Shown here: positions 2,655 to 15,441 of the stretch, piece by piece
Numbering within the stretch: the stretch's first letter is position 1
How the letters are laid out: every line of letters begins with the position of its first letter
Assembly (NCBI GenBank): GCA_005883365.1
Contig: VAXA01000045.1
Coordinates: forward strand, 1 to 15,441
DNA length: 15,441 nt
Direction: 5' to 3'
Source of the DNA: Actinomycetota bacterium
Lineage (GTDB): Bacteria; Actinomycetota; Thermoleophilia; Gaiellales; Gaiellaceae
Notes under the pieces: generated by a model
Databases searched by the model: none
Seen by the model: only the letters and a program-made list of their open reading frames with translations
What the model was told of the DNA's origin: nothing
Translations under genes and position numbers: made by a program

Positions 2655-3190
2655 GCCTGCAGCGCGTAGAGCATCGCCGGCTTACCCCAGGGGACGATGT
2701 CCCGCTCGTACCGTTCGCCGATCTTCTCCGCGACGCGCACCGAACGCGCGTTGCTGTGGCCGATGATGGAGATGAGCCGGGTAAAGCCGCGCTCCGCGAT
2801 TCCCCAGTCGCGCATCGCGAGCGCCGCCTCCGTCGCGTAGCCCTGTCCCCAGTGCTCGCGCGCGACCAGCCAGCCCAGCTCGACCTCGGCGCGCTCGCCG
2901 GCGTCCGCGAAGTTGGCGACCTCCCACGCCCCTCCGTCCCAGACGAGGAAACCCGAGCGCCCGATGACCCGTCCGTCCTCGTGCCGCTCCATGGAGAACA
3001 GGCCGACCCCGTTCGCCTCCCACCGCTCGAGCCAGAACGCGATGCCCTGCTCGACCTGCTCGCGCGTGGCGGTGCTGCCGTCGCCGATGTAGCGAACCGT
3101 CTCGGGATCGGCATAGGCGACGGCGAGATCGGCCGCGTCCTCGAGGCGGGGCTTCCGGAGCAGGAGGCGCTCGGTCTCGATCGTCGTCAC
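2651..3190 (-). CDS. GNAT acetyltransferase, RimJ/RimL type (copy 1)
   Basis: This 179-residue cytoplasmic acyltransferase uses acetyl-CoA to acetylate an amine. It opens with the [11 protein letters not shown] strand typical of RimJ/RimL-type GNATs. The acetyl-CoA pyrophosphate loop is visible as [12 protein letters not shown] (111-122), preceded by ELGWLVA, and the C-terminal [15 protein letters not shown] helix follows. The GTG start overlaps the stop of the adjacent paralogous acetyltransferase, and the stop overlaps the start of the CoA-transferase (4 bp each). It is clearly related to its neighbour at 3187-3723 (same opening, the LERW..NG segment, REHWGQGYA), so the pair looks like an old tandem gene duplication. 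RimJ/RimL-type proteins acetylate ribosomal-protein N-termini, amino acids, antibiotics or polyamines. The substrate here is unknown. Confidence 0.9.
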
Positions 3191-3723
3191 CGCGGGTGCT
3201 CCCAGGCGACGTGCGGGCCGCCGTCGAACAGCTCGACCGTCTCGCCGGGAGTCGCCCCGAGCCGCTCCGCGAGGCGCTGCGAGCGGACGTTGGCGGGCGC
3301 GATCAGCGACACGAGCCGCTCGATACCTCGCTCGGCATAGGCCCACTCGCGCACCGCGAGCACGGCCTCGGCCGCATAGCCCTGCCCCCAGTGCTCGCGT
3401 GCGAGCGCCCAGCCGAGCTCGGGCTGTGCGTGCTCGCCGGCACTCTCGAACGTCGTGTGCGTCCAGGTGCGAACGTCCCACACGAGCAGACCCGTGCGGC
3501 CGAGCCAGCGCCCGTCCTCGCGCCTGAGGATGGAGAACGGGCCGCAACCGTTGTCGTCCCAGCGTTCGAGCCAGCGGCGGACGACGAAGCCCGGTTCGGT
3601 GCCGGCGTCGGGATGGACGCCGCCGATGAACTCCATCGCGATTGGGTCGGTGATGAGCGCGAGCGCAGGCTCCGCGTCCTCCGGCACCGGCTTCCGCAGC
3701 AGGAGCCGTTCCGTCTCGATCAC
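3187..3723 (-). CDS. GNAT acetyltransferase, RimJ/RimL type (copy 2)
   Basis: A 178-residue GNAT-fold acetyltransferase and paralogue of the next gene in the operon. It begins [12 protein letters not shown], has the acetyl-CoA loop [12 protein letters not shown] (109-120), and ends with the LIAPANVRSQRLAERLG helix-strand expected for motif B. The chosen GTG start at 3723 begins right at the conserved first strand and overlaps the MaoC-like stop by 4 bp; its own stop overlaps the start of copy 1 by 4 bp. The C-terminus differs from copy 1 (FDGGPHVAWEHP in place of [11 protein letters not shown]). This is where such enzymes close over the acceptor, so the two copies may have different acceptors; that is inference. 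Only the family is certain. Confidence 0.9.
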   Translation of the reverse strand: MIETERLLLRKPVPEDAEPALALITDPIAMEFIGGVHPDAGTEPGFVVRRWLERWDDNGCGPFSILRREDGRWLGRTGLLVWDVRTWTHTTFESAGEHAQPELGWALAREHWGQGYAAEAVLAVREWAYAERGIERLVSLIAPANVRSQRLAERLGATPGETVELFDGGPHVAWEHPR

Positions 3724-5681: not shown

Positions 5682-7547
5682 GTGAACCGACTGGCGCAGG
5701 AGACGAGCCCGTACCTCCTCCAGCACGCCGACAACCCCGTCGACTGGCACCCCTGGGGGGAGGAGGCACTCGGCCGCGCGCGTGCCGAGGGGAAGCCGCT
5801 GCTCGTCTCGATCGGCTACTCCGCCTGTCACTGGTGCCACGTGATGGAGCGGGAGTCGTTCGACGACACGACAACCGCGGAGCTCATGAACGAGCTCTTC
5901 GTCAACGTGAAGGTCGATCGCGAGGAGCGGCCGGACGTCGACGCCGTGTACATGGACGCCGTCGTGGCGCTCACGGGCCAGGGCGGCTGGCCGCTCACCA
6001 TCTTCCTCACGCCCGACGGCGAGCCCTTCTTCGGCGGCACGTACTTCCCGCCCGAGCCGCGGCACGGGCTGCCCTCGTTCCGGCAGCTATTGCGTGCCGT
6101 GGCCGACGCCTACCGGGAGCGGCCGCAGGACGTCACCGCGCAGGCGGAAGCGCTCGTCGGCGCCTTGCGGCGATCGGCCGAGACGGAGCAGTCGCGGGAG
6201 CCCCTCACCGAGGCGCTGCTCGCGGAGGCGGAGGCCGTCCTCCTGCAACAGCTCGATCCGCGCTGGGGCGGCTTCGGGCATGCGCCGAAGTTCCCGCCCG
6301 CGTCGGCGCTCGAGTTCCTCCTGCGGCGGGGCTCGCTCGAGCCTGTCCGCCTCACGCTCGACGGGATGGCGGCCGGGGGGATGTACGACCTCGTCGGCGG
6401 CGGCTTCCACCGCTACTCCGTCGACGCGCAGTGGCTCGTCCCGCACTTCGAGAAGATGCTCTACGACAACGCGCTCCTCGCCCCGCCGTACCTCCACGCG
6501 TGGCTGCTCACGGGCGAGGAGCGGTATCGCGCCGTTGAGGAACGGACGCTGGAGTACATGCTGCGCGAGCTGCGCCTTCCGAGCGGAGGATTCGCCTCGT
6601 CGCAGGACGCAGACACCGACGGCGTCGAGGGGCTGACGTACACCTGGACTGCGGAGGAGGGTGCACCCGCGGAGCTCCTCCAGCCCTTCGAGCACGGTCG
6701 CTCGATCCTGCGCGGTGAGCTCGACGAGGAGCTGCGTCCGCGGCTGCTGGCAGTCCGAGAGGAACGTCTCCAGCCGGCGCTCGACGACAAGGTGATCGCG
6801 TCATGGAATGGGCTCGCCCTCGCCGCACTCGCCGAGGGGGCCCGCCGCCTCGACCGCGACGACATGCTCGGGGCGGCCGTCGAGCTCGGAGAGCTGCTTG
6901 CGGTGGAGCCGCTCTGGCGGACGATGCGCGACGGGCGCGCCCGGTTTCCCGCGTACCTCGACGACCACGCGAACGTCGCGCACGGGCTCTACGAGCTGCA
7001 CCTCGCCACCGGCGACCTCCGCTGGCTGCGAGAGGCGCGCCGGCTCGCCCTGGCCGCTGCCGATCTCTTCGGCGACCCGGAGCGGGGCGGCTTCTTCCTC
7101 ACGCCGGCCGACGGCGAGAAGCTCGTCGCACGGCAGAAGTCCTTCGACGACAACCCGACCCCGTCGGGGAGCTCGATGCTCGCCTTCGTCCTGCTGCGGT
7201 TCGCCAGGATCTGGGGGGACGACGGCCTCGAGCGGGAGGCGGTGGGAGCGCTGCGCCTCGTCCGCGATCTCCTGGCGCGGGCGCCGACAGCCTTCGGCTG
7301 GGCGCTCTGCGCGCTCGACCTCCACCTCTCACCGCCGCGCGAGCTCGCGATTCTCGGCGGCCGGGAGTCGGAGGTCGCCCGCGCCGCCCTGCGCGGCTTC
7401 GATCCCAACGCGGTCGTCGCCTTCGGGCCCGCGGACGACGTCCCGCTGCTCGAGGGCAAGACGCGCGTCGACGGCCGGCCGGCCGTCTACGTCTGCGAGC
7501 GTTTCGCCTGCCGCGCTCCCGTCACCGACCCGGGCGAGCTCTCCTGA
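5682..7547 (+). CDS. yyaL: DUF255/YyaL-type thioredoxin-domain protein
   Basis: A 621-residue cytoplasmic protein of the YyaL/SSP411 (spermatogenesis-associated protein 20) family. It has an N-terminal thioredoxin-like domain (about 1-160) joined to an (alpha/alpha)6-barrel domain resembling N-acylglucosamine epimerases and glycosidases. The N-terminal [19 protein letters not shown] is the family hallmark. [11 protein letters not shown] (45-54) carries the CxxC pair Cys49/Cys52, and [21 protein letters not shown] supplies the cis-proline part of the fold. [22 protein letters not shown] and [15 protein letters not shown] mark the barrel. The biochemical function of the family is unknown. GTG at 5682 was chosen because it precedes the hallmark directly. 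The protein is slightly short for the family, with the loss in the middle of the barrel after TYTWTAEE. It is followed by a hairpin terminator. Confidence 0.92.
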
Positions 7548-7552
7548 AAGAT

Positions 7553-7576
7553 GAGGGGGAGCCGGAGCTCCCCCTC
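7553..7576. terminator. Perfect 10-bp-stem hairpin between convergent genes
   Basis: GAGGGGGAGC is followed by the 4-base loop CGGA and the exact complement GCTCCCCCTC. It lies in the 53-bp gap between the yyaL-like stop (7547) and the livK 3' end (7601), so it can serve both strands. There is no T-run on the plus side. On the minus side the stem is followed by a short ATCTTT, so it is a weak classical terminator by that criterion but a very stable structure. Confidence 0.75.
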
Positions 7577-7600
7577 GGGCGTTCAGTCGGGTACGGCCGC

Positions 7601-8609
7601 TTAGTGCAGTCCGCTGATGAGCTTGCCGAACGGGTGCCAGTCGCCGGACGAGCCCCCGCTCCACTTGGTCATGATCAACTGCTCCATCGGGAACGTGCGC
7701 TTCGCCGACGTCTGAAGCGTGATCCCCGGATAGAGGAACGGGTTCTTCGTCGTGTTCATGTGGCGCAGCGCCTTCATGAGGCTCGCCCTCGTAGGGTTCT
7801 TGCCGGCGTGCTTGAGCGCGTACACAAACGTCCACGCCGAGCCGAGCCCGTAGACGAGGTTCAGGTCGCCTGCCGCGAAGTCCTGGTCGAGGGACGGCGC
7901 GTACGTGTGGATGATGTTCTTCGCGAGCTTCATCCCCGGCAGGTTCGGCTGCAGTGTCTGGCTCGCGACGTAACCGGTCGAGATGACTCCGTCCAGGTTC
8001 GCTCCGCTCTGGGCGGCCTTGAGCTCGAAGATCCGGTTCGCTGACACGTTGTTCAGGAACGTCAGCGGGTTCCAGCCGATCAGCGTCTTGGCCACGAGCG
8101 ACTGGATGCTCGCCGTCGGCGTCGCGAAGATGACGAACGTGTCCGCGCCGTGTGCCCGTAGCGCGACGATGTGGGCCGCGATGACCTGGGCGGAATCGCC
8201 GAGGTTGTAGGACTCGGCATCGACGATCTCGTTCGCGTGCGAGCCGAGCCCGGTCTTCAGGCCGGCGAGGTAGTTCTTGCCGTAGGCGTCGTTCTGGTAG
8301 ATGACGCCGATCTTCGCGCCCGCCTTGTGCGCGAGGATGTAATGGGAGTAGAGCTTCGCCTCCCCCGGATAGTCCGGCTGCCAGCCGAGCGTCCACGGCT
8401 TCGTCGAGCCCTGGCACTTGTGGTGGACGCAGTTGCCCCAGTACGCGTCGCCGGTGGCGACGAGCACCTGCGGGATCTTCCTCGTGTTGAGGTAGTTCCA
8501 CGTGGCGAGGATCGGCGCCGTGCCGAGACTGCCGACGACGGCGAAAACGTGGTTCTGCTCGACGAGCTTCGTGGTCTGCGGAACAGTCTGCGACGGGTCG
8601 TACTGGTCG
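7601..8609 (-). pseudogene. livK: Duplicated 3' part of livK-like substrate-binding protein gene, no start
   Basis: In this frame the sequence codes for residues from DDQYDPSQTVPQ (about residue 86 of the intact protein) to the natural C-terminus, which ends GKLISGLH. It is the downstream copy of a 935-bp tandem duplication inside the substrate-binding-protein gene. Because 935 is not a multiple of three, it is out of frame with the upstream copy that carries the signal peptide. No start codon or ribosome-binding site is visible at its beginning. Alone it would lack the secretion signal and the first lobe strand. It is the only place where the native last 24 residues are found. Removing one repeat unit gives an ordinary 421-residue protein. 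Confidence 0.8.
7675..8609. repeat. 935-bp direct tandem repeat, unit 1
   Basis: This unit starts TCAACTGCTCCATCGG and is repeated at 8610-9544 with an exact offset of 935 bases. The only difference I found is base 7826 (A) against 8761 (G), a synonymous TTT/TTC change in the livK frame. The left flank here (GGTCATGA..) is the native one; the junction at 8609/8610 is the novel one. Confidence 0.97.
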
Positions 8610-9801
8610 TCAACTGCTCCATCGGGAACGTGCGCTTCGCCGACGTCTGAAGCGTGATCCCCGGATAGAGGAACGGGTTCTTCGTCGTGTTCATGTGGCG
8701 CAGCGCCTTCATGAGGCTCGCCCTCGTAGGGTTCTTGCCGGCGTGCTTGAGCGCGTACACGAACGTCCACGCCGAGCCGAGCCCGTAGACGAGGTTCAGG
8801 TCGCCTGCCGCGAAGTCCTGGTCGAGGGACGGCGCGTACGTGTGGATGATGTTCTTCGCGAGCTTCATCCCCGGCAGGTTCGGCTGCAGTGTCTGGCTCG
8901 CGACGTAACCGGTCGAGATGACTCCGTCCAGGTTCGCTCCGCTCTGGGCGGCCTTGAGCTCGAAGATCCGGTTCGCTGACACGTTGTTCAGGAACGTCAG
9001 CGGGTTCCAGCCGATCAGCGTCTTGGCCACGAGCGACTGGATGCTCGCCGTCGGCGTCGCGAAGATGACGAACGTGTCCGCGCCGTGTGCCCGTAGCGCG
9101 ACGATGTGGGCCGCGATGACCTGGGCGGAATCGCCGAGGTTGTAGGACTCGGCATCGACGATCTCGTTCGCGTGCGAGCCGAGCCCGGTCTTCAGGCCGG
9201 CGAGGTAGTTCTTGCCGTAGGCGTCGTTCTGGTAGATGACGCCGATCTTCGCGCCCGCCTTGTGCGCGAGGATGTAATGGGAGTAGAGCTTCGCCTCCCC
9301 CGGATAGTCCGGCTGCCAGCCGAGCGTCCACGGCTTCGTCGAGCCCTGGCACTTGTGGTGGACGCAGTTGCCCCAGTACGCGTCGCCGGTGGCGACGAGC
9401 ACCTGCGGGATCTTCCTCGTGTTGAGGTAGTTCCACGTGGCGAGGATCGGCGCCGTGCCGAGACTGCCGACGACGGCGAAAACGTGGTTCTGCTCGACGA
9501 GCTTCGTGGTCTGCGGAACAGTCTGCGACGGGTCGTACTGGTCGTCGAGGACCTTGTCCACGATCTTGCGGTGGAAGACGCCACCGTGCGCGTTGACGTA
9601 GGCGTAGTAGGCCGCTTCCGCGGCCGGGATCGTTGCGTAGAGCGCCGCCGGGCCTGTGAGCGGGAACGTGCCGCCGATCACAATCTGCTTCTTCGTGACG
9701 CCCGGCGTGCCAGTGTGCGAGGCCGCCGCGGTGCCCGCTACGGCGGCTGTGGCGAGAAGAGCGCAAAGCAGCGCTCCGAGCTTCCTACGGTTGACAGCCA
9801 T
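8257..9801 (-). CDS. livK: Branched-chain amino acid ABC transporter substrate-binding protein, frameshifted by duplication
   Basis: The start is ATG at 9801 with AGGAGGGG just upstream. A signal peptide is visible (MAVNRRKLGALLC.., hydrophobic to about residue 27, likely cleaved after GTAAA). The mature part begins VTKKQIVIGGTFPLTGPAA, the classic opening of a Leu/Ile/Val-type periplasmic-binding protein (Peripla_BP_6), which captures an amino acid or similar ligand outside the membrane and delivers it to LivHM. There is no lipobox cysteine. Cys146 and Cys151 (NCVHHKC) could form a disulfide. The frame is normal for 397 residues, to MEQL. It then crosses the duplication junction at 8609/8610 and continues as 117 residues of out-of-frame, Arg/Ser-rich sequence to a stop at 8257. 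The native last 24 residues are lost. As drawn, the product is probably misfolded. It is the last gene of the liv operon, 73 bp after livM. Confidence 0.85.
   Translation of the reverse strand: MAVNRRKLGALLCALLATAAVAGTAAASHTGTPGVTKKQIVIGGTFPLTGPAALYATIPAAEAAYYAYVNAHGGVFHRKIVDKVLDDQYDPSQTVPQTTKLVEQNHVFAVVGSLGTAPILATWNYLNTRKIPQVLVATGDAYWGNCVHHKCQGSTKPWTLGWQPDYPGEAKLYSHYILAHKAGAKIGVIYQNDAYGKNYLAGLKTGLGSHANEIVDAESYNLGDSAQVIAAHIVALRAHGADTFVIFATPTASIQSLVAKTLIGWNPLTFLNNVSANRIFELKAAQSGANLDGVISTGYVASQTLQPNLPGMKLAKNIIHTYAPSLDQDFAAGDLNLVYGLGSAWTFVYALKHAGKNPTRASLMKALRHMNTTKNPFLYPGITLQTSAKRTFPMEQLTTSTTRRRLFRRPRSSSSRTTFSPSSAVSARRRSSPRGTTSTRGRSRRCSSPPATRTGATASTTSARARRSRGRSAGSRTIRGRRSSTPITSSRTRRARRSASSTRTTPTARTTSPA
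8610..9544. repeat. 935-bp direct tandem repeat, unit 2
   Basis: Second unit of the tandem repeat within livK. The match to unit 1 continues for two more bases (TC at 9545-9546), a 2-bp microhomology at the breakpoints, then diverges at 9547 into the native sequence coding for VDKVL. The whole unit lies inside one gene, so it is a gene-internal duplication, not an insertion of foreign DNA. Confidence 0.97.
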
Positions 9802-9874: not shown

Positions 9875-10810
9875 TCAAGCACGGGCAAGCCGACGTAGCC
9901 GCTTGAGCAGGCCGGCGAAGCCGTCGGGGAGCAGGAGCATGACGAGCACTACCGCGGCGCCGAAGACGACGTCGCGGCCGTGGCTGGAGCCGATCACCGG
10001 CACGCCGCTCGAGACCGCCGGCAGGAGACCGACGAACGCAGCGCCGGCGAGGATCCCCCAGAGCGAGCCGAGCCCCGCCACCGCGGCGCCGACGAGGAGC
10101 TGGAGCGAGAGGACGATGCCGAACTCGCTCGGCTCTGCGAAGCCGTTCGTGGCCAGCACCAAGAGCGAGCCCGCCACGCCGGCATAGGCGGCGGAGATCC
10201 CAAAGGCGAGCGTCTTGTAGACGGGCAGCTCGATCCCCGAGGCGACGGCCGCGATCTCGCTGTCGCGGACGGCCCGGAACGCACGGCCGACGCGGCCGCG
10301 CAGGATCAGCCACGCGAGCACGAACAGGATCGCGGACGCTGCCCAGGCGGCGCCGTACAGCCAGACGTGGCTGACCGTCCGCGACGTCTGCACCCCGTCC
10401 CTGCCGCCGAGGAACTTCGACCACTTGAGCGGCAGCTGGGGCACCGAGACGGCGAGCGCGAACGTCGCGAGGGCGAGGTAGACGCCCGACAGCCGCAGCG
10501 CAGGCAGCCCGAGGATCAGGCCGAGGACGAAGCAGATCGCGAACGCCATGAGCATCGTCACGACGAGGTTCGTGTGGTGGTCCTGCGACATGACCGCCGT
10601 CGTGTAGCCGCCGATGGCCATGAACGCGCCGTGGCCGATCGAGATCTGGCCCGTGTAGCCGGTGAGGATGTTGAGACCGAGGATCGCGACGAAGAAGATC
10701 CCAACCCGCGCGGCCAGGGAGACGTTGTAGGCACTCAGGACGAAGGGGAGCGCCGAGAGCAGCCCGGCCACGGCTAGGAGCGAGGCGATCGCGGGCAGCA
10801 GGCGCCTCAT
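9875..10810 (-). CDS. livM: Branched-chain amino acid ABC transporter permease LivM
   Basis: A 311-residue integral membrane permease of the BPD_transp_2 family, one of the two channel subunits of a HAAT-type importer. The family signature is seen at residues 45-69 (GLNILTGYTGQISIGHGAF and following), with conserved GYTGQ and GHGAF. Further blocks are LRLSGVYLALATFA, the ATPase-contacting loop GRAFRAVRDSEIAA, and GLGSLWGILAGAAF near the C-terminus. About eight to ten hydrophobic segments are expected. The start is ATG at 10810, with GGAGG at 10821-10825 (minus strand) and a 4-bp ATGA overlap with the livH stop. The C-terminus is Arg/Lys-rich (LLKRLRRLARA) and cytoplasmic by charge. Confidence 0.95.
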   Translation of the reverse strand: MRRLLPAIASLLAVAGLLSALPFVLSAYNVSLAARVGIFFVAILGLNILTGYTGQISIGHGAFMAIGGYTTAVMSQDHHTNLVVTMLMAFAICFVLGLILGLPALRLSGVYLALATFALAVSVPQLPLKWSKFLGGRDGVQTSRTVSHVWLYGAAWAASAILFVLAWLILRGRVGRAFRAVRDSEIAAVASGIELPVYKTLAFGISAAYAGVAGSLLVLATNGFAEPSEFGIVLSLQLLVGAAVAGLGSLWGILAGAAFVGLLPAVSSGVPVIGSSHGRDVVFGAAVVLVMLLLPDGFAGLLKRLRRLARA

Positions 10811-11820
10811 ACCCGCCGCACCTCCCGGCGACCGAACAGCCCGGTCGGTTTGAGGAGGAGCACGCCTACGAGCACGGCGAACGCGAACGGCGCCTGCAGC
10901 TCGGAGCTGATCGCCGGCACGTACTGGACGACGAGGTTGAGCGAGACGCCGATCACAAGCCCGCCGACGACCGCTCCGGCCGGGCTGTCGAGGCCGCCGA
11001 GAACGGCGGCGGCGAAGGCGTAGACGAGGATCGGCTGCATCAGCGTCGGCTCGAGGAAGAACTGCGAAGGCTCGGCCATGAGGCCCGCGACCGCGCCCAG
11101 TACCGCAGCGAGCCCCCAGCCGATCGCGAGCATCCAGTCGACCCGGACGCCGACGAGCGCCGACTCCGCCGGCCGGAACGCCGCAGCGCGCATGCCGAGG
11201 CCGAGCTTCGTGAATCGGAACAGCGCCCAGACGAGCACCACCGAGACGAGGACGACGGCGAGCATCCCGGGATAGAGGCGCGCGATGGAAACGCCGCCGA
11301 CGTGGTAGATCTTCGTCCCGAAGGGCGAGGGCATGTACTTGAACTCGCCGCCCCAGACCCAGTTCACGACGCCGTCGATGAGGATGAACAGGCCGACGGT
11401 GACGATGACCGCGCCGATCACCGATCGCTGCTGCACCGGCCGCACGAGCGCGACCTCGAGCACGGTGCCGAGCACGAAGGCGATCGCGAGCGTCGCGAAG
11501 AACGCCTCCCAGTACGACAGGCCCCACTGGATGAGCTGCCAGGCTACGTACGTCGTCGCCATCGCGAGCTCTCCCTGGGCGAAGTTGACGACCCGGGTCG
11601 CGCGGTAGACGAGGACGAGTGCGAGCGCGAGGCTGCCGTAGACGGCGCCGAGCGCGAGCCCCTGCACCGTCAGCTGGGCGAAGACCTCGCTGCGCAGGCA
11701 GCCGACGAGCAGACCTGCGGCGCCCGCGACCAGGAGCAGGCTGACCGGCGGCACGACGCCGCCCAGCGCGGCGCCGCGGCGCCGGAGGCTGGGGCGGGGG
11801 GAGCTTTCGAGCGCAGCCAT
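10807..11820 (-). CDS. livH: Branched-chain amino acid ABC transporter permease LivH
   Basis: This 337-residue membrane permease pairs with LivM. The core of the family begins at about residue 50 with LTVQGLALGAVYGSLALAL. It continues with YRATRVVNFAQGELAM, a LivH signature, then the coupling region LGLGMRAAAFRPAESALVGV and AVLGGLDSPAGAVVGGL near the end. It is longer than the usual 290-300 residues because of an N-terminal extension of about 45 residues (Arg-rich, then a hydrophobic segment) before the conserved core. A shorter start cannot be excluded, although ATG at 11820 lies only 5 bp after the livF stop, as expected for an operon. No good Shine-Dalgarno is seen, so translation may depend on coupling to livF. 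Confidence 0.93.
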   Translation of the reverse strand: MAALESSPRPSLRRRGAALGGVVPPVSLLLVAGAAGLLVGCLRSEVFAQLTVQGLALGAVYGSLALALVLVYRATRVVNFAQGELAMATTYVAWQLIQWGLSYWEAFFATLAIAFVLGTVLEVALVRPVQQRSVIGAVIVTVGLFILIDGVVNWVWGGEFKYMPSPFGTKIYHVGGVSIARLYPGMLAVVLVSVVLVWALFRFTKLGLGMRAAAFRPAESALVGVRVDWMLAIGWGLAAVLGAVAGLMAEPSQFFLEPTLMQPILVYAFAAAVLGGLDSPAGAVVGGLVIGVSLNLVVQYVPAISSELQAPFAFAVLVGVLLLKPTGLFGRREVRRV

Positions 11821-11825
11821 CGCGC

Positions 11826-12529
<704 letters not shown>

Positions 12530-12533
<4 letters not shown>

Positions 12534-13267
12534 GCCGCGAGCTCGCCTCCGAGGTAGGCCTCGATCACCGCGGGGTTGCGCTGCACGTCGGCGGGCGCGC
12601 CGGCCGCGATCGTCCGTCCGAAGTCGAGGACGTGCACGTGCTCGCAGACCTGCATCACGAGCCGCATGTGGTGCTCGACGAGCAGGATGGTCAGCTCGCG
12701 CTCGTCGCGCAGCCGCCGGATGAGGCCGACGAGCTCGTCGACCTCTTGGTGGTTGAGGCCACCGGCCGGTTCGTCGAGTAGCAGCACGCGCGGCCGGCTG
12801 GCGAGAGCGCGGGCGAGCTCGACCCGCTTCAGCGTCCCGAACGGGAGGCCGGACGCCGGACGTCCCGCGTGCTCGGCGATCCCCACGTCGGCCATCGTCT
12901 CGAGCGCCTGGCGCCGCTGCTCGGCCTCGCGCTGCAGGCGGGAAGAAGCATGCGCGCCCACGAGGACGTTCTCCAGTACGGTGAGCCTCGGGAACAGCTC
13001 GAGGTTCTGGAAGGTGCGGGCGATGCCGAGACGGATCACGCGGCTCGGGCGGACGCGGCGGAGCGAGTGGCCGTCGAAGAGGACATCGCCGGAGTCGAGC
13101 CGGTAGAGGCGCGTGATGGCGTTGAAGGCCGTCGTCTTGCCGGCGCCGTTCGGGCCGATCAGCCCGACGATCGAGCCTTCCGCCACCTCGAGGGAGACAT
13201 CGTCGAGCGCGACGATCCCGCCGAACCGCAGCCGAGCGTGGTCGAGCGCGAGGAGCCCCTTCGCCAC
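12530..13267 (-). CDS. livG: Branched-chain amino acid ABC transporter ATP-binding protein LivG
   Basis: A 245-residue cytoplasmic ABC ATPase. The features seen are Walker A GPNGAGKT (38-45), the Q-loop in ARTFQNLELFPRLTVLENV (Gln87), Walker B VLLLDEP (161-167) and the H-loop VEHH (His199). The signature region is LPFGTLKRVELARAL (141-155), in place of LSGGQ. A degenerate signature starting LP(Y/F)G is normal for LivG. The start chosen is GTG at 13267, just before LLALDHARLRFGG. No Shine-Dalgarno is evident, and a TAGGCT (13276-13281, minus strand) stands 8 bases upstream, so a leaderless transcript is possible but unproven. The 35-bp gap to the upstream serine-hydrolase gene also allows read-through. 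It is the first liv gene of the operon. Confidence 0.95.
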
Positions 13268-13302
13268 CGACCGCGAGCCTAGAGCATCGGACGCGGCGCG
13301 GG

Positions 13303-14607
13303 CTAGGACTCGCGGCGGGTCACGACGATCTCCTGGTCGCACTGCCTCAGCGTGAAGCCCGCGGCGCGACTTGCCTGATCGCTGTTCAGAGTCACCGAGA
13401 TCCGCCCGTCCGCCGTGGCGAGTGTGTGCTCGTCGACGATGTCGAATGGAAGAGGGTCCTGGTCACCAACTGTGAGCATCGCTCCCGTAGCTGTTGCCTC
13501 GAGCGCAATCACCGAGCCCGAAGCCGTTTCGCAGGTCCCGCGAAAGTCGATGCTCGTCTCGCCTGCAAGGCCATGCCGGGCGAGTGCGCTCCAACCCAGG
13601 CGGCGCGCCAGTTGGTTGAGAAGCGCGGGGACGACGAGACCTCCTTCGTCGGCGTTCGTCATCACGGCTGTGGCCGGCCCGCGGTGTGCGGATGCGACGA
13701 ACTCGCAGCGATATCCAGCATTGCCGCCGGTGTGACCGAAATACGGATTCTCCGGGGTGCCATAGAGACTCACACCGAGACCCCAGCGGGGCATTTGCGG
13801 CGTCACCATCTCAGCCACCAGCCACTGTGGGATGAGGGCGCCGCGCTCGCCGTTGAACGCGCGCTGCATCCCTCTGGCGAAGCGCACGAGGTCCGTCGGA
13901 GTGCACCAGAGGCCCGCAGCCGCGAGCTCGGGATAGACGTGCCAGCCACCCTCGATGGGTTTGCCGGCCGAGAAGCCGGGAGCGACGCGGGGCTCGAGCT
14001 CGGGCGGGATGGGCTGCTCGAACGTCGCCGACTCCATACCAAGTGGAGCGAGGATGCGCTCGGCGGCGAGGTCTCCGAAAGGCCTCTCTGCCACGTCCTC
14101 GATCAGCTGCTGAATCACCGCGTATCCCCCTCCCGAATAGGCGGCGGCTAGCCCCGGAATCCCGACGCTCCGGATGGGGTCGGTGTTCGCGGGCGGACGC
14201 CCGTCGAGAATGTCCAAGAGGCTCGGAACCGGCTCGTCGCGTCTGTAGCCCGGAAACCCCCGCACGCTCAAGCCTGCTCCGTGACAGAGGAGCTGCCGCA
14301 GCGTGATTCGCGGCCGCCACTCCCCGCTGCTCGTCACGAGAGGCGGTAGCGACCACGTGTGTATCGCGTTCGCGATGTCGTCGTCGAGCGAGAGCTTCCC
14401 GTCGGCGGCCAGGCACAGCGCGAGCACAGCGGTCACGGCCTTGCTGATCGACGCCGCCTGGAAGAGCGTGTCCGGGGTTGCTTCCCAACCTGCCGTGACG
14501 ATGTCTTCGTCCTGCGCGTAGGCGAGCGAGACTGCGGGAGTCAGGCCCGCGTAGCTCGTGACGGTCGCGGTGAGCTCGCGGGCGAGGTCGTCAGGAAGGG
14601 CCGTCAA
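13303..14607 (-). CDS. Beta-lactamase-family serine hydrolase (class C/PBP-like) with C-terminal domain
   Basis: A 434-residue protein of the beta-lactamase/esterase/DD-peptidase fold. The catalytic SxxK is SISK (Ser53-Lys56), the YxN-type motif is YSG (157-159), and HTGG (292-295) stands for the KTG box. QLLCHGAGL, YSGGGYAVIQQLIE and WCTPTDLVRFARGM are typical of the family. About 100 residues after the catalytic domain (from 340) look like a beta-rich C-terminal domain common in these hydrolases. No signal peptide is visible, so it may act in the cytoplasm, for example as an esterase or amidase and not a wall enzyme. The start is TTG at 14607, overlapping the SDR stop (TTGA); no ATG or GTG is available nearby upstream. 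Codon choice looks less GC-biased than in its neighbours, which may mean it was acquired later; that is a visual impression. The substrate is unknown. Confidence 0.9.
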   Translation of the reverse strand: MTALPDDLARELTATVTSYAGLTPAVSLAYAQDEDIVTAGWEATPDTLFQAASISKAVTAVLALCLAADGKLSLDDDIANAIHTWSLPPLVTSSGEWRPRITLRQLLCHGAGLSVRGFPGYRRDEPVPSLLDILDGRPPANTDPIRSVGIPGLAAAYSGGGYAVIQQLIEDVAERPFGDLAAERILAPLGMESATFEQPIPPELEPRVAPGFSAGKPIEGGWHVYPELAAAGLWCTPTDLVRFARGMQRAFNGERGALIPQWLVAEMVTPQMPRWGLGVSLYGTPENPYFGHTGGNAGYRCEFVASAHRGPATAVMTNADEGGLVVPALLNQLARRLGWSALARHGLAGETSIDFRGTCETASGSVIALEATATGAMLTVGDQDPLPFDIVDEHTLATADGRISVTLNSDQASRAAGFTLRQCDQEIVVTRRES

Positions 14608-15441
14608 GCCTGGAGCGAGCGCCCGCCCGCGGACTGCATGCCGGCGATCATCCCGGGCGGCGCGGCGCCGTCCGGGAAGCGCGCGAGCAGCTCGTCCAGC
14701 AGCGCGTCCGGCTCCCACCCCGCGGGCGCGTCGAGGAGCTCGTCGGCGCTCCAGCCGCGGAGGACGTTCACGGCGCCGCCCCAGACGTGGAATACCTGGC
14801 CGGTGATTGCCTGGGCCTCGTCGGCGCAGAGCGCGACGACCACAGCCGAGACGTTCGCCGGGTCGAGCGGGTCGAAACCCTTTGCCGGCGCGCCCATCTG
14901 GAACGTCTCCTCCGTCATGCGGGTGCGCGCGTTCGGCGCGAGGCAGTTCACGGTGACGCCGTAGCGCTGCAGCTCCTGGGCCACGATGATCGTGAAGCCG
15001 GCGATGCCCGCCTTGGCGGCGCCGTAGTTCGCCTGGCCGACGTTGCCGAACACGCCCGACGGGCTGGACGTGTTCACGACCCGGCCGCGAACCTCCTCGC
15101 CCGCCTTTGTGCCCGCCTTGGCGGCGCCGTAGTTCGCCTGGCCGACGTTGCCGAACACGCCCGACGGGCTGGACGTGTTCACGACCCGGCCGCGAACCTC
15201 CTCGCCCGCCTTTGAGCGCTCGCGCCAGTGGGCCGCCGCGTGGCGGGTGGGTCCGAAGTGACCTTTCAGGTGGACGGCGAGGACGGCATCCCACTCGTCC
15301 TCGGTCATGTTCACGAGCATTCGGTCGCGGAGGATCCCGGCATTGTTGACGAGGATGTCGAGCCGGCCGAACTCGTCGAGCGCCTGCTGCACGAGGCGCT
15401 CCGCTCCCGCGAACTCGGCGACGTTCTCGCCGTTCGTCGAC
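14604..15441 (-). CDS. Short-chain dehydrogenase/reductase with duplicated active-site segment, 5' end outside window
   Basis: The last 278 codons of a classical SDR, an NAD(P)-dependent oxidoreductase. The sequence enters at NGENVAEFAGAERLVQQALDEFGRLDILVNNAGILRDRM, which resembles the 3-hydroxyacyl-CoA dehydrogenase/17-beta-HSD4-like branch, so an acyl-CoA substrate is plausible. The NNAG motif is seen. The N-terminal cofactor motif TGxxxGxG lies off the window. The segment with the catalytic serine (NTSSPSG) and YxxxK (NYGAAK) occurs twice in frame because of a 105-bp tandem repeat, adding 35 residues. Tyr/Lys codons are at 15024-15026/15012-15014 and again at 15129-15131/15117-15119. The rest (VTVNCLAPNARTRMTEE, ITGQVFHVWGG) is normal. 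Two catalytic blocks in one Rossmann fold would be expected to disturb folding. The stop overlaps the TTG start of the hydrolase. Confidence 0.88.
   Translation of the reverse strand, partial: STNGENVAEFAGAERLVQQALDEFGRLDILVNNAGILRDRMLVNMTEDEWDAVLAVHLKGHFGPTRHAAAHWRERSKAGEEVRGRVVNTSSPSGVFGNVGQANYGAAKAGTKAGEEVRGRVVNTSSPSGVFGNVGQANYGAAKAGIAGFTIIVAQELQRYGVTVNCLAPNARTRMTEETFQMGAPAKGFDPLDPANVSAVVVALCADEAQAITGQVFHVWGGAVNVLRGWSADELLDAPAGWEPDALLDELLARFPDGAAPPGMIAGMQSAGGRSLQA
15005..15109. repeat. 105-bp direct tandem repeat, unit 1
   Basis: This unit, starting TGCCCGCCTTGGCGG, is repeated without visible change at 15110-15214. It codes for 35 residues of the SDR catalytic region and keeps the frame. 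The mismatches just outside (A at 15004, A at 15215) show no overlap at the exact breakpoints. A 9-bp GCCCGCCTT occurs near both ends of the unit (15006-15014 and 15099-15107). Confidence 0.97.
15110..15214. repeat. 105-bp direct tandem repeat, unit 2
   Basis: The second unit lies directly next to the first. The junction reads CTTTG then TGCCC at 15109/15110. The right flank (AGCGCTCGCGCC) is the native continuation coding for HWRERS. Confidence 0.97.

Follow-up and report, generated by a model that had tools for sequence, protein, structure and literature searches.

The window, which is the whole stretch of 15,441 nucleotides that was analysed, is the entire contig C222 of a draft genome that is 78.19% complete, with 2,148,135 bases distributed over 310 contigs. 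It carries an operon of the liv type on the minus strand. The last gene of this operon, livK, encodes a binding protein with a Peripla_BP_6 domain, and its partners, as assigned by Pfam, are two BPD_transp_2 permeases and two ABC ATPases. These partners (livM and livH with BPD_transp_2 domains, livF and livG with ABC_tran domains) occupy positions 9875 to 13342 on the minus strand, with approximate ORF starts. The locus fits an operon for an ABC transporter whose predicted substrates are branched-chain amino acids. The contig ends in a short-chain dehydrogenase (SDR) gene; on the opposite side of the operon, a DUF255/thioredoxin-like gene points towards it.

Three of the four longer loci from relatives (L095, L096 and L097) conserve the order SDR-livG-livF-livH-livM-livK and the converging gene; in the fourth, L094, the contig begins at livM. 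Relatives bear names such as Gaiellaceae or are labelled as Thermoleophilia and Actinomycetota MAGs, which points to the group concerned. Among congeners, livK is next to livM in all 11 loci (L023-L033). In G002, a twelfth congener that is outside the 11-locus repeat count given below, livK is represented only by a pair of partial matches, located on two contigs. Elsewhere in the window, positions 2718-3017 and 3257-3556 form a direct repeat of 69% identity that corresponds to two adjacent acetyltransferase-like genes (named by eye), which are probably old paralogues.

A 935-bp tandem repeat within livK

The livK gene holds a head-to-tail repeat of 935 bp on the minus strand, consisting of copy A at 7675-8609 and copy B at 8610-9544, offset by exactly 935 bases. 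Direct comparison of the copies, which abut, shows that 934 of 935 bases are identical and that the longest exact run is 785 bases; a match of this length cannot have originated by chance. The sole mismatch is an A at 7826, where position 8761 has a G. It is synonymous, changing the minus-strand codon between TTT and TTC, both of which encode Phe, and is of the kind that one would see between strain variants. The presence of the repeat in the deposited sequence, as described in an earlier sequence-only reading, is thus confirmed at these coordinates, except that the repeat had been called perfect and is not. The match between copies extends two bases beyond the 935, to 8611/9546, in agreement with the TC microhomology that the same reading had reported.

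Copy B is continuous with the native N-terminus of LivK, whose start lies at 9801, and on the minus strand copy A leads into the native C-terminus. From the native ATG at 9801, the ORF extends on the minus strand as far as 8257 and encodes 514 amino acids with a Peripla_BP_6 domain. The first 397 of these residues are native; the other 117 are out of frame and form the nonsense tail previously described. The native C-terminus, with a stop codon ending at 7601, is in a different frame from the native start. The remainder of the gene that carries this C-terminus (7601-8635, minus strand; Peripla_BP_6) has no native start. It had been said to have no start, and the authentic start is indeed absent, but the frame is open upstream to 9766 (721 amino acids), without the native start or signal peptide.

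Intact LivK proteins and related loci

A search with the 514-residue frame found a public LivK protein of 421 amino acids, P0001, that has 21 member sequences and occurs on 4 contigs. Because the longest of these contigs is 10,719 bp, none is the 15,441-bp window contig. The first 397 residues of P0001 are identical to the native-start frame and the last 335 are identical to the frame of the other copy, so the pieces of LivK in the window are matched at all 421 residues. The protein may come from the window's own sample or from another.

The 514-residue form is absent from the 120 LivK proteins listed (the best 120 of 2778 matches, from a candidate set capped at 8000), and none of these 120 proteins, which are 381-425 residues long, contains an exact internal repeat of 10 amino acids. 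Likewise, tandem repeats are absent from livK at all 11 congener loci. No second intact livK was found elsewhere in the same genome, where nothing matches strongly apart from the two pieces in C222. One further match, on C258, is weak (32% identity over residues 4-116).

These comparisons bear on the proposal, made in the sequence-only reading, that the locus could be a reversible on/off switch. In such a switch, livK would be turned on when the copies recombine and the repeat collapses, and turned off when the repeat expands again. Collapse would in principle yield a full-length gene. Tandem repeats collapse easily. To regenerate one exactly from a single copy that lacks flanking repeats is not a simple matter, so loss of the livK repeat would be a one-way reversion. 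A phase-variable switch would also be expected to recur at the same locus in relatives, but the repeat is seen at 0 of the 11 loci and in 0 of the 120 listed proteins, and a Pfam scan of 10 window proteins detected no recombinase domain. A switch is therefore extremely improbable, and this candidate was rejected for its absence in the relatives examined and for want of a plain route to re-expansion.

A further repeat in the SDR gene

The window contig has another tandem repeat, at 15005-15109 and 15110-15214 on the minus strand, which is not mentioned in the finding of the sequence-only reading. Its two copies of 105 bp are exact, and the repeat is in frame inside the SDR gene, where it doubles 35 residues around what we take to be a YxxxK-like stretch. 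Of the 120 SDR proteins listed, only P0121 has a 10-residue stretch that recurs exactly within the protein, and its contig of 15,441 bases identifies it as the window's own; the other 119 are without one. Matches to the SDR gene in L095-L097 span 227 codons, as compared with 262 residues in the window, which is 35 fewer. This repeat is probably an artefact of the same kind as that in livK. Alternatively, an exact repeat of 105 bp could be resolved by ordinary reads, so it might be genuine.

Repeats and overlaps in the rest of the assembly

To sample the same assembly, 60 of its 310 contigs were requested, of which 9 were masked with N and excluded. This left 51 contigs totalling 421,703 bases, with the window uncounted. 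Tandem repeats and end overlaps were called at 95% identity and 60 bases. Tandem repeats are present in 3 of the 51 readable contigs (L002, L010 and L109), all with at least 97% identity, although these are small counts.

In L002 (C1), copies at 7524-8416 and 8417-9309 are 99.6% identical, and the segment 8417-9784 recurs in full at 9877-11244 (1368 bases, 99.9% identity, 2 mismatches). The result is a staggered pile-up of three copies, the third of which includes the whole of the middle one. The repeats cross a fumarase-like gene (named by eye) that is full length in one copy and cut short in two. Over L002:7417-11244, three staggered and near-identical copies span the fumarase-like gene and its neighbour. 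The pattern looks like three overlapping contigs set in a row.

The repeat in L010 (C121) has a unit of 183 bp (L010:2783-3149) and lies in frame within a glutamate formiminotransferase gene. The doubling comprises 61 residues, and the L010 protein has 354 amino acids as against 292-308 in 120 listed relatives, which by their length do not share it. An identical intact form of this protein was not found in the search, in which the best match is 92% identical. The repeat in L109 (C161) has a unit of 250 bp (L109:6740-7219), with 97% identity and a 3-bp indel, and was not called as tandem by an exact-seed scan. It may be natural, or it may be an overlap between strain variants. Repeat sizes are mixed in this assembly, in that units of 105 and 183 bp are multiples of three and remain in frame, whereas those of 935 and 893 bp are not.

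Unmerged end-to-end overlaps also occur among the sampled contigs. Three pairs, with identities in the range of 98.4-98.9%, are L010:1-268 with L047:1-268 (268 bp), L020:3195-3385 with L111:1-191 (191 bp), and L021:5736-6058 with L116:1-323 (323 bp). A fourth pair, L006 and L100, shares 308 bp at 96.4%, with a contig end on one side only. For the window contig's own ends, no near-identical partner contig was found in the genome; apart from the contig itself, the best matches are short, at most 43 to 88 bases with 74-93% identity.

As a control, we used G003, a similarly fragmented congener with about 310 contigs and 2.2 Mb (71% complete). Of 47 contigs requested, 7 were masked and dropped, leaving 40 readable contigs with 310,520 bases. 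No tandem repeat was found in these 40 contigs at the cut of 95% identity and 60 bases, and there is one end-to-end overlap, which is exact and 136 bp long. Nine other congeners contributed 33 contigs, of which 2 were masked and dropped, and the remaining 31 (345,245 bases) have neither a tandem repeat nor an end overlap at the 95% cut. Since the few contigs of these nine are too scattered, the comparison of end overlaps rests on G003.

At a looser cut of 80%, L088 (from G010) has a near-adjacent repeat of 147 bp with 91% identity (L088:2722-3041), which looks natural. Some looser similarities appear at this cut in the own-assembly sample and in the other congeners, and G003 still has only its 136-bp overlap. 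Looser repeats are therefore found in controls as well. An exact-seed scan of 37 control contigs gave two short direct repeats of 53 and 71 bp, neither of them tandem, the latter in L088. What marks this assembly within the sample, albeit with small counts, is the combination of nearly identical copies that abut and contig ends that overlap inexactly without having been merged.

Origin of the livK repeat

We consider it very probable that the livK repeat is an assembly artefact, in which overlapping contigs of near-identical strains were concatenated without being merged. Two contigs, which the one synonymous difference suggests were probably derived from two near-identical strains, would have shared about 935 bp of livK and been joined end to end at 8609/8610 with their overlap left unmerged, which would give rise to a false tandem duplication. 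We infer both the joining step and the existence of two strains, and the novel junction at 8609-8610 is accordingly taken as the putative point of concatenation. An assembly error, which had been raised as the alternative in the sequence-only reading, is strongly favoured because the sampled assembly contains other repeats and unmerged overlaps and because an identical intact protein of 421 amino acids exists on other contigs.

Several features fit this artefact. The copies abut and differ by few substitutions (934 of 935 bases are identical, with one synonymous difference), the microhomology is minimal, and in-frame and out-of-frame repeats are mixed. In addition, L002 includes a contained copy, and unmerged ends occur elsewhere in the assembly. 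At the 95% cut, tandem repeats and inexact end overlaps are seen at other places in this assembly and not in the matched control, within small counts, and the single-copy form is intact on other contigs, as P0001. Points against the artefact are that the ends of the window have no near-identical partner contig, that L109 is possibly natural, and that a looser repeat occurs in control contig L088. Further such points are that the 105-bp repeat might be genuine, that P0001 may come from another sample, and that the search for an identical intact form of the L010 protein found none.

Mis-assembly of divergent haplotypes is described as a source of false segmental duplications by Kelley and Salzberg (2010; PMC2864568). 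There, as is proposed for livK, one locus is reconstructed twice from slightly different chromosomes and placed adjacent to itself, with SNPs between the copies. The cases presented there involve diploid vertebrates. In livK, by contrast, co-occurring strains in a metagenome could play the role of the two haplotypes, if our inference is right, and the copies abut without a gap.

The repeat could instead be genuine. In that case, illegitimate recombination at the 2-bp microhomology would have duplicated the segment in tandem very recently in the sequenced strain and so knocked out livK, and an intact allele would persist elsewhere in the population. Duplication with short microhomology is a known type of mutation. 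The sequence alone is consistent with such an event, and the one mismatch may have arisen afterwards by mutation. However, the degree of fragmentation suggests that short reads were used for the assembly, and if so, it would be odd for a fragmented draft to resolve a repeat with an exact run of 785 bases. Also speaking against the duplication are the further repeats and unmerged overlaps in the same assembly, the intact form, identical in amino acids, on other contigs, and the lack of the repeat at the 11 congener loci and in the 120 listed LivK proteins. Nothing in the analysis favours a genuine duplication, which is quite unlikely.

Spontaneous tandem gene duplications in bacteria are head-to-tail copies of a chromosomal stretch, and the livK repeat likewise has this arrangement. 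Unlike such duplications, it is wholly within one gene, and repeats resembling it occur elsewhere in the sampled assembly. There is also no transposase domain in the 10 window proteins that were scanned with Pfam; amplification associated with IS elements in bacteria is a subject of PMC13423834. In a further form of this explanation, a genuine intragenic duplication would be segregating among uncultured Thermoleophilia, where intact and duplicated alleles coexist and the latter revertibly deprive a liv-type transporter of its binding protein. This form is very improbable.

Implications for the transporter and the draft genome

Of the functional consequences that had been drawn from the repeat, neither the loss of the transporter's binding protein nor the reversible switch found anything in its support. 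Reading the deposited sequence at face value would lead to mis-annotation of livK as a broken gene and of the transporter as non-functional. Observations on the sampled contigs suggest that this draft genome has unmerged overlaps at several places, so its frameshifted or partly doubled genes need to be checked before they are given a biological reading. The livK repeat, which most likely is an assembly mistake, tells little about the living bacterium, and its value is only that of a warning. The bacterium itself most likely has a single intact livK gene, with a product of 421 residues that feeds the LivHMGF transporter.
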